Shown here one piece after another: positions 2,889 to 18,453 of a stretch of 18,654 bases of DNA. The DNA lies in assembly GCA_005879255.1 (NCBI GenBank), contig VBKY01000173.1:1-18654 (forward strand). The letters are read 5' to 3'. The notes beneath the pieces were generated by a model. The model made no database searches. It was not told where the DNA came from and saw only the letters and a list, made by a program, of their open reading frames with translations. The stretch's first letter is position 1. Each line of letters starts with the position of its first letter. The translations under genes and the position numbers were made by a program. The stretch is from Deltaproteobacteria bacterium (GTDB lineage Bacteria; Desulfobacterota_B; Binatia; UBA9968).

Positions 2889-3449
2889 ATGAAATTATAT
2901 TCCTACCAACCTTGACCCTACGCCCACAGGACAAGGCTTGTCCTGGCAGAGAAAAAACTTTCCCATCAGCTCATCGAGTGCGATCTCTCGAACAAACCAA
3001 AGGATCTATTGGAGCTCAATCCCTACGGTAAAGTTCCGGTGCTGGTGGATGGCGAGGGGGTCATCTACGAGTCGGCGATCATCAACGAATATCTGGAAGA
3101 AAAATATCCCCAGATCCAGCTCATGCCGTCCGACCCCATCCAACGCTCGCGCGCGCGCATCTGGATCGATTATTGTAATACGCGCCTACAGGCGGCCGCC
3201 GGTAACATCGCTCACGACCACGAGGTTGAGAAATCAAAAGAAAGAGTGCGCGGATATCTCGAAACTTTGAATCAAGAGATGCGTGACCGGCAATACATCG
3301 CGGGTGAGTATTCGCTTGCTGATATCACTTACATCCCGTTCTTTTGTCGTCTGCAGCGCTACCAGACGACCATTGGTGACGATCTGCCGCATTTAAAAGC
3401 ATGGATGGAGCGTCTGCTCGATCGACCGGTGGTGCGGGCGACGCCGTAA
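2889..3449 (+). CDS. Probable selenocysteine-containing glutathione S-transferase (in-frame TGA read as Sec9)
   Basis: Read through one in-frame TGA (2913-2915), this gene encodes a 186-aa GST/SspA-like protein. The start ATG at 2889 has GAAAGGGG about 8 nt upstream, so translation clearly begins before the TGA. The N-terminal thioredoxin-like domain reads MKLYSYQP-U-PYAHRTRLVLAEK. In omega-class and Cys-type GSTs the position before PYAHR or PFAER is the catalytic Cys, and here it is TGA. Further marks are the cis-Pro region GKVP50VLV, E61-S62 of the glutathione site, and the helical C-domain with the S142-L-A-D145 N-capping box. The remaining 177 codons contain no other stop or frame break, unlike a decaying gene. 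A hairpin of bacterial SECIS form follows the TGA. It would act in the cytoplasm as a thiol/selenol transferase or reductase. The alternative is a Cys-to-stop mutation giving a pseudogene, but the hairpin makes this less likely. Confidence 0.8.
2916..2945 (+). promoter_or_regulatory. Candidate bacterial SECIS element of the GST selenoprotein
   Basis: Immediately after the TGA there are 11 unpaired nt (2916-2926), then a perfect inverted repeat: CAGGACAA at 2927-2934, loop GGC at 2935-2937, and TTGTCCTG at 2938-2945. An 8-bp stem with a short apical loop beginning with GG, 19 nt from the UGA, falls within the described geometry of bacterial SECIS elements. The 11-nt spacing equals that of the E. 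coli fdhF upper hairpin as I recall it. Both Arg codons in the stem are AGG, whereas the other 13 Arg codons of the gene include no AGG, which suggests selection on the RNA structure. SelB binding is inferred; no bulged U as in fdhF is seen. Confidence 0.75.
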
Positions 3450-3693: not shown

Positions 3694-4057
3694 AAATTCT
3701 CTCCTATACGCTTCCTGGCCATTAACCCACTGAACTCATAGACGATCGGGTCACAGATTCGTTTACGGCCGGCACCCCGGCAAAACCTGATGCGTTTGCG
3801 CTTTCCGCCTCCGAATTGATGGAAACAGCAATCGACATGCCGCTCGGAGTTGGAATGGTAAACCATTGCCATCGAGCGCGCTCACTGCCCTCAGGATGGC
3901 ATTTTGGCCAACCATATTGAACAGTTTTGTGCGGCAAGCGCGCTTTACGGACCCCTGAGCATTTTAAACCGTGACGCCTTGACCGGCGATCGCCGCTTGC
4001 CTTATTTTACCGGCAGCGAGGCATTATTAGCGCGTGCCTTTGCTTAGAGGTGCTCTG
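3694..4057. other. 364-bp gene-free interval
   Basis: I see no convincing protein-coding gene here. Two short minus-strand ORFs overlap each other, lack family character and have no good ribosome binding site. One of them translates with CHPEGSERA, a phrase I associate with spurious translations of repeated intergenic DNA (recollection, not searched). An imperfect inverted repeat at 3868-3900 has GCCATC and GATGGC ends and contains the palindrome GAGCGCGCTC (3873-3882). A possible promoter for the SBP gene lies at 3979-4008. Confidence 0.5.
3979..4008 (+). promoter_or_regulatory. Possible sigma-70 promoter of the SBP gene at 4058
   Basis: TTGACC (3979-3984) and TATTTT (4003-4008) are separated by 18 nt, about 50 nt before the SBP start. 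The spacer contains the 12-nt palindrome CGGCGATCGCCG (3984-3995), which could be an operator or chance. The -10 element is weak, so the call is tentative. Confidence 0.3.
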
Positions 4058-5053
4058 ATGCAAACACGGCAAAGCCAACGGTCGGCCTGTCTCTGGCTCA
4101 TTTCATTATTGGTGACCGTTCATCTGACGAATCCTCGATCAATCGGGGCGCAACCCTCTCCTCGTCCAAGCCGCCCGTTGCGCGTCGCTTATTTGAGCAC
4201 CTCGGCGACTATGGCCTCGCTTTGGATGGCCAAAGAGATCGGCGGATTTGCCAAGGAAGGCTTGGATGTCGAGGTGATCTCCATGTCGTCGAGCAACGCG
4301 ATTCCCGCGCTGATTGCCAACGAGCTTGACGCCGTGCAGGTTTCCGCCGCGCCGGTGATCACGGCCTCTCTGCGCGGCATTGATGTCGTTTTCATCGCCG
4401 GTTTATTAAACACGATGATCTGGGACTTTTACGTTCGTCCCGAAATCAAAAGCGTCGAACAACTCAAAGGCAAGATCGTCGGTACCGACCGACCAGCCAC
4501 CCCGGTAAGATATGGCACGATGGTCGCCTTGAAAAAATTGGGGTTAACGCCAAAAGACGTTCAGCTCTTTCCCTTGGGCAGTAGCCCGCAAATCGTCGCA
4601 GCTTTTTACGCCGGGCAAATCGCCGGCGGCGTCGGCTCGCCGCCCGCGAGCTTTCAAATGGAGCGCGCCGGTTTTCGCTCGATGGTCAGCCTGCTCGACG
4701 TCCCCTATCAAAACGTCGGTATCGTCGTCAGGCGCAGCCGCATGGATGAGTTGGGGCCGCGTTTAGTTCCGTTGTTGCGCTCCATTCGCGCCGGCATCGA
4801 GCGCTTTTATGCCGATAAACCATTCGCCATGAAAGTGATCGGCAAATACACCAAGGAGAGCGATCAAGACGTTCTCGACCGCACCTATGAGTTTTACAAA
4901 AAGGCGGGATTCCGACGCGAAATGGTCACTTCGGAACCAGGCCTGCAGGGCATGCTGGATTTCTTATCGGAGACGATCCCCGAGGCAAAAACTGCCAAGC
5001 CGGCGCAATTTTTCGACGACCGTTTCTTGCGTCAGGTGAACAGCGGAAAGTAG
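4058..5053 (+). CDS. ABC-type nitrate/sulfonate/taurine-like substrate-binding protein (NMT1/SsuA family)
   Basis: This 331-aa exported protein is a periplasmic SBP. The N-terminus (MQTRQSQRSACLWLISLLVTVHLT) is a signal peptide with a positively charged start. The mature part opens with LRVAYLSTSATMASLWMAKEIGGF, the first strand and helix of the NMT1/SsuA fold. Next come the ligand-pocket segment VSAAPVITASLRGIDVVFIAGL and the hinge/lobe-2 segment SVEQLKGKIVGTDRP. The frame is open back to a GTG at 4034, but the ATG at 4058 has AGAGGTG at proper distance and gives the better signal peptide. No permease or ATPase gene is nearby. A lipoprotein gene begins 3 nt after its stop. The ligand is unknown; family members bind sulfonates, nitrate, pyrimidine precursors or aromatic acids. 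Confidence 0.88.
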   Translation: MQTRQSQRSACLWLISLLVTVHLTNPRSIGAQPSPRPSRPLRVAYLSTSATMASLWMAKEIGGFAKEGLDVEVISMSSSNAIPALIANELDAVQVSAAPVITASLRGIDVVFIAGLLNTMIWDFYVRPEIKSVEQLKGKIVGTDRPATPVRYGTMVALKKLGLTPKDVQLFPLGSSPQIVAAFYAGQIAGGVGSPPASFQMERAGFRSMVSLLDVPYQNVGIVVRRSRMDELGPRLVPLLRSIRAGIERFYADKPFAMKVIGKYTKESDQDVLDRTYEFYKKAGFRREMVTSEPGLQGMLDFLSETIPEAKTAKPAQFFDDRFLRQVNSGK

Positions 5054-5561: not shown

Positions 5562-6385
5562 ATGACCATCATCGACGCCCAAGTTCACGTCTGGCCACCG
5601 GAAACGGCGGAGAGACCCTATATCAAAGAAGATGCATCCAAACCCCATCGACCTGTCGCGTTTGAATATCCGGATCTGCTGGGCGAAATGACAGCGGCCG
5701 GCGTCGATCGCGCGATCTTAGTCCCGCCTTCCTGGGAAGGATATCGGAACGATTACGCGCTCGAGGCAGCGCAAAAATATCCAAATCGTTTTGCCGTGAT
5801 GGGCAAAGTGCCGCTCAATGATTGCGCGAGCGAGGCAAAGATGGCGTCCTGGTTGAATCAGCCCGGCATGATGGGATTTCGCATCAGCTTCCGCCACGCG
5901 GGCACGCACTCATGGCTTGACGGCGGCACGGCGGATTGGTTTTGGGCGGCAGCGGAAAAATAGGACATCCCCGTCATGGTCTTCGCGCCTTTCGCGGTGG
6001 AGAAGATCGGTGAGATCGCCGAGCGACATCCCGGACTCCGCGTTATCGTCGACCACATGGGAAGGATCTGCCGCCGGGCGTCGATGTGTTGCTTAAGTTC
6101 GCCCGCCTTGAGAACGTCGCCGTTAAAGCTTCCTGTCTTCCATGCTATGTTGACGAGCCATACCCTTTCCCAACGCTCCATCCGCAGATTCGGCGGGTCG
6201 TCGAAGCCTTCGGTCCGGAGCGCGTTTTCTGGGGCACTGATCTTTCTCAGCTTCCCTGCCCCTACCGTCAAGCGGTGACGCTGTTTACCGAGGAGCTGGA
6301 TTTTCTCTCTACTTCGGACAAAGAATGGATCATGGGGCGTGCAATCGCCCGATGGTTGAATTGGCCGGTGCCGGCGCGGAAATAA
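5562..6385 (+). pseudogene. Amidohydrolase_2 pseudogene (nonsense codon plus 1-nt frameshift)
   Basis: The ancestral gene would encode about 275 aa of the amidohydrolase_2 family. The 5' part (133 codons) starts MTIIDAQVHVW, the typical D-x-Q-x-H-x-W metal-site start, and ends in an in-frame TAG at 5961-5963. The homology resumes in the same frame (DIPVMVFAPFAVEKIGEIAERHPGLRVIVDHMG). Near 6061-6064 it shifts by one base into DLPPGVDVLLKFARL. The end, with FWGTDLSQLP and GRAIARWLNW, is intact to 6385. Inserting one A in the GGAAGG at 6060-6064 would restore M-G-K-D-L-P-P. The gene is therefore broken twice, unless these are assembly errors. No good Shine-Dalgarno precedes the ATG. It lies between the 5057 lipoprotein and the alpha/beta hydrolase. 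Confidence 0.8.
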
Positions 6386-8468: not shown

Positions 8469-9524
8469 TCATCGTCCAAATGCTAGGGCTTGCTTGCGCT
8501 GCTGTTCATCGCGTATCGACGGCCCAAAAACAGTTTCGAAATATTTTTCTTTTACCAACTGGTCGACCAAGCTGTTGTCGATAGCCTTCGATAGATCGAG
8601 TCCTTTCAATTCCTGGCTTTGCCGCTCCACCACCGCTTCCACCGAGCCCTTCAGCGCGTAAGGGATCGGCTCCAACACCCGTGCTTTCTTGAAGAGATCG
8701 TACACCCGGTTGGCGTCCTCAGTGTTCCTGGTACCGCCGTATTTGATCATGATTTCCGTCGCAAAAGCTTTATCGTCATAGAATCGTTTGATCGCTTCGG
8801 CGTGAGCCTTGATGAAGGCTAGCGCCGTCGCCCGTTCCTTGCTCAAGGCTTCGCGACGGAAAAGATAATAGGTCGAAACATAGATATCCTCGTGGTCGAG
8901 CAACACAGCCAACACGGGCAATCCGGCTGCCTGCAGACGAAAGTAAGCCGGCGCCGTAATCAAGGCGGCATCCACCTGCCCGCTCTGCAATGCCGCCGCC
9001 CTGGCCGCCGCATCGACGCCGATGGATACCCACTGAATATCGCGCGGTGTCATGCCGTATTTTTTCAACAGGCTCACCGCCATATGATAGGGCGGATCGC
9101 CGACACGACCGACGCCGATTTTTTTGCCGCCGAGCTGCTTCATGTCCGTAGCCGTCTTCGAGCCGATCATCGCGAAGGAGCCCTTGTTCATGAAACCTCC
9201 GAGCACGACCAATGATGGATCCTTCGCCGCGGCCAACAGAGCTGGATCGCTTCCCGAAGAAGTCATCGCGGCGTGGCCGCTGATGATCGCCGCGATCGGA
9301 CCCGGATGAACCGCATAAACCAACTCGACATCGAGACCGTATTTGGCGTAGAGGCGCGCGTCTTTAGCGATCCACAGTGGCCAGGAGGCGCCGCTTCTTG
9401 CTCCGATCATTGCTACGGCTTTCTGCAATGGCTGGGCAAACAGCAGAGGCGCACCGAGAATAAACAGCGCCAGAAACACCGCCATGACGGCTGCGCCTTG
9501 AAGCTCAATTTTTTCTTGTTTCAC
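8469..9524 (-). CDS. ABC-type substrate-binding protein (NMT1/SsuA family), partner of Rieske gene
   Basis: This 351-aa exported SBP starts at a GTG (9522-9524), giving a signal peptide with lysines before the hydrophobic core (MKQEKIELQGAAVMAVFLALFILG, ending near LLFAQP). An internal ATG at 9485 is the alternative start, but it would lose the charged n-region. The mature start, KAVAMIGARSGASWPLWIAKDARLYAKYGLDVELVYAV, is the typical lobe-1 opening. MTSSGSDPALLAAAKDPSLVVLGGF, then DMKQLGGKKIGVGRVGDPPYHMAVSLLKKYGM, mark the ligand cleft and lobe 2. It follows the Rieske oxygenase gene on the same strand after 83 nt, so the SBP may deliver or sense that enzyme's substrate. No permease or ATPase gene is present nearby. 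The ligand is unknown. Confidence 0.88.
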   Translation of the reverse strand: MKQEKIELQGAAVMAVFLALFILGAPLLFAQPLQKAVAMIGARSGASWPLWIAKDARLYAKYGLDVELVYAVHPGPIAAIISGHAAMTSSGSDPALLAAAKDPSLVVLGGFMNKGSFAMIGSKTATDMKQLGGKKIGVGRVGDPPYHMAVSLLKKYGMTPRDIQWVSIGVDAAARAAALQSGQVDAALITAPAYFRLQAAGLPVLAVLLDHEDIYVSTYYLFRREALSKERATALAFIKAHAEAIKRFYDDKAFATEIMIKYGGTRNTEDANRVYDLFKKARVLEPIPYALKGSVEAVVERQSQELKGLDLSKAIDNSLVDQLVKEKYFETVFGPSIRDEQQRKQALAFGR

Positions 9525-13147: not shown

Positions 13148-14155
13148 ATGATCTATAGAGTATTGCTCGTTGTGTTGCTCACCCTTGCGCTGGCAATCTT
13201 CCCCTGCTACCGCGGTGATACGGCCGCGCCATTAACAAAATTGATTCTTACTACCGGCTCTCTTAGCGAACGCGAAGGCGTGCTTTACGTCGCCCAGGAC
13301 CAAGGATTATTTCGCAAATACGGCATGGACGTTACCTTGGTCCAAGTGCGCAACGGGCCCGTGGGCATGGCGGCGCTCAGCTCCGGCGAGTCGCAGCTTC
13401 ACTGGGGTTCGGTGTCAGCGGCAAATCTTGGCGCAATCGCCGAGGGCGCGGATCTGGTTTTTGTCGCGGGATTCATAAATCGGCTAACCGGAGTTTTTCT
13501 CGCCAATCCAAAAATTAAAAGCCCGCTAGAACTCAAAGGCAAAACTATCGGCGTCAATAGCTTGAGCGGCGGTGCATGGATTTTTTCGATGCTCACCCTG
13601 GATTACTGGGGACTCGTTCCGGAACGTGACAAAATACAATTCAGATCCCTCGGTGATCAATCCGTTATCGCCCAAGCGCTCACGGTGGGCACTGTCGACG
13701 CTGCCTACATGGGCTATACCTACGGAAAGATTGTCCAAAGCAAGGGGTTTCGCTTGCTGGCCGAGCTGGAAAAGTTACCGATCCCCTATCAAGGTTCGGG
13801 TCTCATGGCGCGGCGCAGCTTCATCGCCGCGTCATCATCCAGCGCCGAAAACATTTTTAAGGCGTTACTCGATGGCGTGGATTTTATTCGGAATCCTGCC
13901 AACAAGGCGCAGGTTCTCAAGAGCCTCGTCAAAGGCATGCGGTTGGCGCGAGCCGACGACGCAGAAGAAGGTTACCAAAGCCTGGCGAATCTTTATGAAC
14001 GGAAAATCTATCCGAGCGTCGATGGGGTGCGCAATGTCATTCGTTTGCTGGGAACAAACAATGAAAAAATCCGACGTCTCAAAGCGGAGGATTTGGTAGT
14101 CGACAGCATCGTCAAAAAATTGGAGAAGGAAGGCCGGTTTGCGGAAAGGCAATAG
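13148..14155 (+). CDS. ABC-type substrate-binding protein (NMT1/SsuA family)
   Basis: This 335-aa exported SBP begins MIYRVLLVVLLTLALAIFPC, a standard signal peptide with its end near YRGDTAAP. The mature start LTKLILTTGSLSEREGVLYVAQDQGLFRKYGMDVTLVQVRNGPVG is the family opening. SSGESQLHWGSVSAANLGAIAEGADLVFVAGFINRL and SPLELKGKTIGVNSLSGGAWIFSML follow as cleft segments. The ATG at 13148 has AAGGG about 10 nt upstream. The stop TAG directly abuts the ATG of the next lipoprotein gene with no gap, so the two are translationally coupled. No ABC permease or ATPase is present. The upstream gap to the divergent PG-binding gene is 241 nt and shows no clear promoter for this gene. Confidence 0.88.
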   Translation: MIYRVLLVVLLTLALAIFPCYRGDTAAPLTKLILTTGSLSEREGVLYVAQDQGLFRKYGMDVTLVQVRNGPVGMAALSSGESQLHWGSVSAANLGAIAEGADLVFVAGFINRLTGVFLANPKIKSPLELKGKTIGVNSLSGGAWIFSMLTLDYWGLVPERDKIQFRSLGDQSVIAQALTVGTVDAAYMGYTYGKIVQSKGFRLLAELEKLPIPYQGSGLMARRSFIAASSSSAENIFKALLDGVDFIRNPANKAQVLKSLVKGMRLARADDAEEGYQSLANLYERKIYPSVDGVRNVIRLLGTNNEKIRRLKAEDLVVDSIVKKLEKEGRFAERQ

Positions 14156-17499: not shown

Positions 17500-18453
17500 A
17501 TGTTCGGGATCGTCTTTCTCTTTTTGCTTGGCATCGTATCCGCCAAACCGCCAGCCGCTCTTGGCGCGGACCGCGTCAGGCTCGCATTGCCGGCCAAGTC
17601 GATGGGCTATCTTCCCCTATTTGTCGGCGTCCATCGCGGGTTTTTCAAAGATGAAGGCATCGACATCGAGATTTCGATGCTGCTACCGCAGCTCGCGCAC
17701 AATGCGCTGCTCTCCGGCGACGTTGATTATCACGGCGTCGCCGACTCCGCGTTGCGCCTGGCCGCCAAGGGCGCGCCCATGAAGTCGATCTTCTTCGGCG
17801 CCGCCCGTCCGAATTACTTCTTAATGGCCAAACCGCAATACAAATCCATCGCCGAGCTGCGCGGAAAATATATCGGCATGGTTCGCTTCGGTGACACCGT
17901 CGAGCTGGCCACGCGAATCGCGTTCAATCGGGAAGGCCTCGATCCGCAGCGCGACGCGATACCGATTATGATCGGTTTTCCGGCGACCCGCGTCGCCGCG
18001 CTCGCCGCCGGTTCCGTCGATGCCACGATCGCCGTTCCGCCGGATAACGTCCTGCTCAAACAGAAGGGTTTTCGCGAGTTGCTTTTTTTGGGCGATGCCG
18101 TCGAATTTCCCAGCAACGGCTACGCGACCTCCGAGCGTCAACTAACCGAAAAACGAAGTTTGACCAAGCGGGTTTTACGAGCGCTTTATCGTGGTCTCAT
18201 TTTCGCCAAAGAACGCCCCGACGACGCGATCCAGATCATCGAACGGGAGTGGAAGGTCGATAACGCGGTCGCGCGCGAATCCTATGCGTCACTGGCAAAA
18301 TCGTTTAGCCGCGACGGCACCGCCAGCGAAGCCGGTCTCATGTTTCACACGCAGCATATTCAGAGAATGGAAAAGGGAATCGGTGATATCCCGCTCAGTA
18401 AGATCGTCGATTTCCGCTTACTTGAGGAAATACGGCGGGAGATGGTTAAATAA
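17500..18453 (+). CDS. ABC-type substrate-binding protein (NMT1/SsuA family)
   Basis: This 317-aa exported SBP has the short signal MFGIVFLFLLGIVSAKPPAALGAD, with few charges before the core. The mature start is RVRLALPAKSMGYLPLFVGVHRGFFKDEGIDIEISMLL, then LSGDVDYHGVADSALRLAAKGAPMKSIFF and SIAELRGKYIGMVRFGDTVE, the usual cleft signature. There is no good Shine-Dalgarno before the ATG at 17500, and no better in-frame start was found upstream. Translational coupling to the cupin, which ends 17 nt earlier, may replace it. It is the fourth complete SBP in the window and again has no permease or ATPase. Ligand unknown. Confidence 0.86.
   Translation: MFGIVFLFLLGIVSAKPPAALGADRVRLALPAKSMGYLPLFVGVHRGFFKDEGIDIEISMLLPQLAHNALLSGDVDYHGVADSALRLAAKGAPMKSIFFGAARPNYFLMAKPQYKSIAELRGKYIGMVRFGDTVELATRIAFNREGLDPQRDAIPIMIGFPATRVAALAAGSVDATIAVPPDNVLLKQKGFRELLFLGDAVEFPSNGYATSERQLTEKRSLTKRVLRALYRGLIFAKERPDDAIQIIEREWKVDNAVARESYASLAKSFSRDGTASEAGLMFHTQHIQRMEKGIGDIPLSKIVDFRLLEEIRREMVK

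Follow-up and report, generated by a model that had tools for sequence, protein, structure and literature searches.

The window, an 18,654-nucleotide stretch of DNA, carries on its forward strand a predicted gene for a selenocysteine (Sec)-containing glutathione transferase (GST) at positions 2889-3449, consisting of 186 codons and a terminal TAA and delimited by its reading frame, Pfam matches and a structure model. The translation of this frame, MKLYSYQP*PYAHRTRLVLAEK...ATP*, contains two stops, TAA at 3447-3449 and TGA at codon 9 (2913-2915), which is the predicted Sec codon according to frame, alignment and model. The Shine-Dalgarno-like sequence GAAAGGGG at 2874-2881 precedes the ATG at 2889 with a spacing of 7 bases, and purine-rich runs were noticed by eye upstream of the starts of many relatives. 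Codons 10-186 contain no stop, and the TGA is the sole lesion-like site in the frame. In these respects the locus is as stated in a preliminary description, which had reported a single in-frame TGA at codon 9, a Shine-Dalgarno sequence before the ATG and 177 remaining codons free of lesions. Elsewhere in the contig TGA is an ordinary stop codon, because 5 of the 19 window genes listed end with it; in these genes the next in-frame stop lies 4 to 56 codons further on.

The surroundings of the gene are poorly conserved. A tblastn search for the FlK-type thioesterase encoded upstream placed it at 4 of 83 loci, many of which are short or duplicates; these four are the nearest relative L001, its copy L073, L003, where it lies about 3.3 kb upstream, and L080. 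The neighbours therefore do not tell the substrate of the GST. Downstream, a forward-strand amidohydrolase gene (5562-6385) is interrupted by a TAG at 5961 and, at a later point, by a frame change. The corresponding gene of L001 (8193 onwards) has an open frame; the broken gene is either a pseudogene or an assembly error. The products of four genes of the window resemble NMT1/SsuA-type substrate-binding proteins, one by Pfam (4034-5053) and three by eye (8469-9524, 13148-14155, and 17500-18453).

The encoded protein scores over the cut-offs of the Pfam GST_N and GST_C families, and its predicted structure has a mean pLDDT of 94.8, in agreement with the complete GST fold that had been proposed. 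A thioredoxin-like N-terminal domain with VP and ES motifs (2895-3113, forward strand; Pfam GST_N_3, residues 3-75) is followed by a helical C-terminal domain (3222-3428, forward strand; Pfam GST_C, residues 112-180). In the structure model, helix 10-21 begins directly after residue 9, so that the protein has the arrangement of Cys-type GSTs, with the position of the reactive residue immediately before helix 1. V49 and P50 as well as E61 and S62 are invariant among 20 aligned proteins; we take these to be the glutathione-site motifs with a role in glutathione binding. Likewise, the Cys residue found in some homologues opposite the TGA is presumably the catalytic one. The gene product is best explained as a Cys-type (omega/SspA-like) GST in which the reactive residue is very likely selenocysteine. 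It differs from known Cys-type GSTs, namely the omega class and SspA homologues (6v91, 4qq7, and 4hoj), in that UGA replaces the Cys codon and in its short length of 186 amino acids.

The nearest relative of the gene, L001, comes from a metagenome-assembled genome (MAG) labeled Deltaproteobacteria, encodes a GST with 91% identity and has TGA at the same codon. Seven stretches of L001 align with the window at 74-81% nucleotide identity, including two upstream genes, the FlK-like gene and the GST gene. Conservation of the TGA was followed in 148 genomes of the class of L001, which we infer to be Binatia and to which several related loci titled Candidatus Binatia point. Among the class matches listed, all 39 that reach 52% identity contain a single internal stop, which is TGA; of the two matches listed at 48% identity, one has the TGA and one does not. 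Gene decay in relatives, which the preliminary description had named as evidence against Sec, was thus not encountered, as none of these 39 closest listed matches has a second stop. Group A, the subfamily of the window gene, is matched in 32 of the 148 genomes, and a further 15 have other TGA-bearing matches among those listed. Accordingly, TGA-bearing relatives of the GST are present in at least 47 of the 148 genomes, some of which have two or three copies. One of these genomes, G134, carries TGA-containing GST genes and includes the contig of L016, which is titled Syntrophobacter sp. SbD2; this label may be wrong.

Reading of the loci at the DNA level, with duplicates removed, yielded 40 group-A genes (HRTR, the window included), 7 group-B genes (MRTR) and 8 group-C genes (RKTR), all of them with the TGA. 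Group B (UPFAMRTR-type: L019, L023, L111, L114, L117, L118, and L119) is a further subfamily that bears the TGA, and its hairpin looks canonical. Another codon occupies the aligned position in 29 relatives, encoding Ser in 19, Cys in 8 and Thr in 2, and these counts are no frequencies, the sequences having been fetched partly for having or lacking the TGA. More distant relatives mostly have Ser or Cys at codon 9. Cys, the residue expected in homologues by the preliminary description, is present in these eight. Cys stands opposite the TGA in L010, L012, L014, L021, L022, L125, L127, and L128 as well as in the database protein P0098, which provides the alignment of TGA with homologous Cys that is characteristic of bacterial selenoprotein genes. 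Of 33 genome_contigs loci, 10 have TGA at codon 9, namely the eight nearest loci and two that belong to another subfamily, and the others have Cys, Ser, or, in two cases, Thr. A sample of 395 genomes of the wider phylum gave ten matching genomes at E <= 1e-33, all of them already contained in the class set. In the class of the L012 genome, which is titled Gammaproteobacteria, none of the 46 matches listed at E <= 1e-30 (44 of 369 genomes) has an internal stop.

Downstream of the TGA, at a distance of 11 bases, a SECIS-like hairpin at 2927-2945 on the forward strand is formed by 7 pairs, with the loop AGGCT at 2934-2938 containing GG, as indicated by folding and covariation. Each of the 47 aligned group-A and group-B rows has the loop AGG[C/A]T. 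For the covariation test, these 47 rows, 40 of them distinct, were evaluated at the 7 pairs (280 cells) and compared with 500 shuffles. Pairing is maintained in 96.8% of the 280 cells, 16 cells are changed on both sides and the covariation score is 0.201, compared with at most 0.080 when the partner strand is slid; none of these three values was reached by any of the 500 shuffles, which overstate significance for related sequences, as kin rows can beat shuffles without any structure. When the partner is shifted by 1-3 bases, no more than 45.4% of the cells pair. Three of the seven pairs are changed on both sides, a count that was reached by 70 of 500 shuffles, and all other measures were reached by 0 or 1. 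Double-sided changes include A-U to G-C in L107 and in group B, A-U to U-A in L086, and G-C to A-U in L117 and L119. Non-pairing was found in four of the 40 distinct rows at columns 21-27 and in four at columns 15-33; the pair adjoining the loop is broken in L083, L096, L102, and L108.

The hairpin is also stable beyond what the protein sequence would require. After synonymous resampling, none of 2000 trials reached the energy of the window hairpin, and 0 to 14 of 2000 did so for six other printed genes of groups A and B; among the 29 relatives without TGA, L028 (28/1000) and L131 (31/1000) stand out most. The codons of Arg14 and Arg16 are each AGG in 40 of 40 genes, compared with 39 of the 525 Arg codons at other places in these genes. 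Within codons 2-90, pS amounts to 0.275 in codons 10-18 and to 0.67-0.72 elsewhere, while pN/pS is 0.09 in codons 10-18, compared with 0.42 upstream of the TGA and 0.24-0.27 downstream of the hairpin codons. Therefore, the gene is coding sequence both before and after the TGA and is subject to an additional constraint at the RNA level just 3' of it. The hairpin is SECIS-like and covarying, having a G-containing apical loop 3' of the TGA that is kept by compensatory changes as in bacterial selenoprotein genes. An Rfam scan of the window returned no family and thus no curated SECIS model in support. Model R1 of the hairpin gave 52 to 74 bits for the group-A and group-B genes searched. The searched genes of group C and five Cys forms scored 17 to 27 bits, these five Cys forms being without the hairpin. 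Beyond the site itself, the only match of R1 in the window is a partial one on the strand opposite to this hairpin.

Group C (UPYARKTR-type: L112, L113, L115, L116, L120, L121, L122, and L130) shares the TGA. Its hairpin lies nearer to the TGA and has a loop without GG. The hairpin energies in this group were reached by 0 to 66 of 1000 resampled sequences with the codon usage of groups A and C, and by 2 to 142 of 1000 with that of group C. Evidence for a structure in group C is thus mixed.

The machinery for Sec incorporation was searched in nine genomes of TGA-bearing relatives. Only matches over the cut-off were counted, because below it the searches for tRNA-Sec and SelB match all 14 of 14 controls. 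By this measure, SelA was found in seven genomes, SelB in six, SelD in six and tRNA-Sec in five, and all four are present in G002, G004, G008, and G009. ARAGORN assigned the anticodon TCA to all five tRNA-Sec loci tested. In G001, the genome of the nearest relative, contig C387 carries selA and selB together with a selD that contains a TGA; no tRNA-Sec over the cut-off was found in this genome, the best candidate, at 44.3 bits, being a tRNA-Ser according to ARAGORN. In G006, which carries a TGA-containing GST gene, SelA, SelB, SelD and tRNA-Sec are all below the cut-off or absent. Such absences are weak evidence because most of the records are titled MAGs; moreover, the tRNA-Sec search scored a part of the first-look candidates, 150 per genome in one search and 10 in another. 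All six SelD sequences over the cut-off (L064-L069) have one in-frame TGA, located in the motif KA(A/S)GUA(A/G)KLGPADL, and a hairpin is predicted 3' of it in a folding run without control. The TGA inside SelD therefore suggests that the cells behind L064-L069 decode UGA. SelB over the cut-off is encoded in 119 of the 148 class genomes and in none of five genomes from outside the class in which the related GST has Cys. Inside the class, SelB does not separate group-A carriers (26/32) from other genomes (93/116), and three class genomes in which Cys forms were read, G033, G077, and G087, also have SelB over the cut-off.

Database entries of the closest homologues mostly lack the region around codon 9. 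Of 120 homologues listed, 118 start after this codon, at scattered points between codons 10 and 51; as would be expected, and as the simplest reading, the scattered late starts arise because gene callers took the TGA as a stop. The other two have Trp (P0006) and Cys (P0098) at position 9. P0098 is a Cys form with 64% identity that falls within the TGA clade. P0006, a homologue with 74% identity, stems from a metagenome contig and has Trp at the Sec position. In a tree, both are placed inside a 42-row group-A clade with a support of 94/95. Over the 83 rows of this tree, from which L030, L032 and L033, three of the 29 relatives without TGA, were left out, the Sec label requires five changes. Judged from its protein sequence, P0098 suggests that Sec and Cys have been exchanged at least once. 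A search with residues 1-40 of P0098, using a tool that requires shared exact words and is not exhaustive, matched P0098 and P0002 only.

The TGA could be a true stop, produced by a nonsense mutation or a sequencing error, in a gene that is decaying or mis-assembled. Lesions or errors of this kind do occur in the contig, as the amidohydrolase gene with its TAG and frame change, open in L001, illustrates. However, the same TGA is present in 40 distinct genes from many genomes, pN/pS is well below 1 on either side of it and the frame has no other lesion, which leaves a true stop with next to no probability. A second possibility, that the TGA closes an 8-residue leader and the working protein begins at an internal codon as annotated in databases, would agree with the commonest database starts at codons 28, 41, 49, or 51. 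It is nevertheless very improbable, since the majority-residue codons 10-45 offer no start codon common to most group-A genes, codons 10-40 are under purifying selection and the shortened protein would, according to the structure model, be deprived of the first strand and helix. The supposed leader, codons 2-8, aligns as coding sequence, with the weaker constraint noted above.

It is about equally improbable that a code change or suppression causes the TGA to be translated as a different amino acid (Trp or Cys). The Trp of P0006 would fit such a reading, but this gene may have been called under a genetic code in which TGA is Trp. Five of the 19 listed window genes terminate in TGA, the hairpin 3' of the codon covaries, relatives possess tRNA-Sec and SelB, and some distant relatives carry Cys at the position, all of which argues against this reading. 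The preliminary description had proposed decoding as Sec, and this proposal is supported by the conservation of the TGA, the covarying hairpin and the Sec genes in related genomes. Judged from sequence, UGA codon 9 is very likely decoded as selenocysteine, which for the window's own organism we infer.

With Sec at codon 9, the hairpin just 3' of the UGA would recruit SelB with Sec-tRNA as the ribosome arrives, and Sec would be placed at the start of helix 1, beside the glutathione site. The protein would bind glutathione and its selenol would attack a disulfide or peroxide. Subsequently, a selenenyl or seleno-glutathione intermediate would form, from which a second glutathione would regenerate the selenol. 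Conjugation is less typical of Cys-type GSTs than thioltransferase and dehydroascorbate reductase activity. Glutathione synthesis appears to be available in the TGA-bearing relatives, since GCS2 was found in 9 of 9 genomes, and glutathione synthetase in 6 of 9 over the cut-off and in 8 of 9 at any level.

High glutathione peroxidase activity has been obtained with engineered GSTs that carry Sec at their glutathione site, which in one report is at residue 9 (PMC9944854). Like these enzymes, the candidate protein would be a GST with Sec at this site. The engineered seleno-GSTs are, however, artificial and were derived from Ser-type GSTs either chemically or with the help of an auxotrophic host, whereas the Sec of the window protein would be natural and located in a Cys-type GST. 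A glutathione-dependent thiol or peroxide reductase is to be expected because of the habits of Cys-type GSTs and the peroxidase activity of the engineered Sec enzymes. From the fold and this analogy, the protein may tentatively be regarded as a glutaredoxin- or peroxidase-like glutathione reductase rather than a conjugating transferase, at a likelihood somewhat short of even.

GST-like selenoproteins have been reported before, with 4 sequences from the Sargasso Sea in 2005 (PMC1088965) and 12 sequences from the GOS data set in 2008 (PMC2398784). Reviews from 2022 and 2026 list GST selenoproteins with one example accession each, PPR62222.1 and MEK9676863.1 (PMC9312934, PMC13188914), and the 2026 review describes the functions of such families as largely uncharacterized (PMC13188914). 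The earlier remark that these families had been hinted at only in metagenome surveys matches the record in the accessible parts of these sources, to which the later reviews are to be added. The ocean-metagenome proteins (COG0625/PF13409) are likewise bacterial, belong to the GST family and were predicted from an in-frame UGA. In contrast to them, the window gene is a member of a conserved group of one bacterial class and comes with a genome context and a tested RNA element; the likeness to the ocean proteins is one of description in the accessible text.

A literature search for a Binatia or Binatota lineage of GST selenoproteins found none, with most subscription journals outside its reach. 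A search combining Binatota with selenocysteine turned up one paper, on methane cycling in sponges. GST or glutathione are not mentioned in the main text of the deep-Sep paper. The genes described here make up a large lineage, with good support, of the GST-like selenoproteins; this kind is known but uncharacterized and is not a new one, because such proteins have already been listed from ocean metagenomes and in reviews. New are the extent of the lineage, the RNA element and the truncation of close database entries, in which the catalytic N-terminus is missing from 118 of the 120 closest proteins listed, most simply through the TGA having been taken as a stop. The earlier record, as far as its accessible text goes, comprises table entries drawn from a handful of ocean reads, with function not described there. 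It is conceivable, though with a little less than an even chance, that Binatia possess a widespread natural seleno-GST, corresponding in nature to the engineered Sec9 GSTs, that carries Sec in several subfamilies (groups A, B and C) and acts as a glutathione-dependent peroxidase or thiol reductase, the hairpin of group C being perhaps unlike the canonical SECIS. Dozens of examples from genomes, together with a clean RNA element and relatives that have Cys or Ser at the same position, make the role of selenium in a GST testable.
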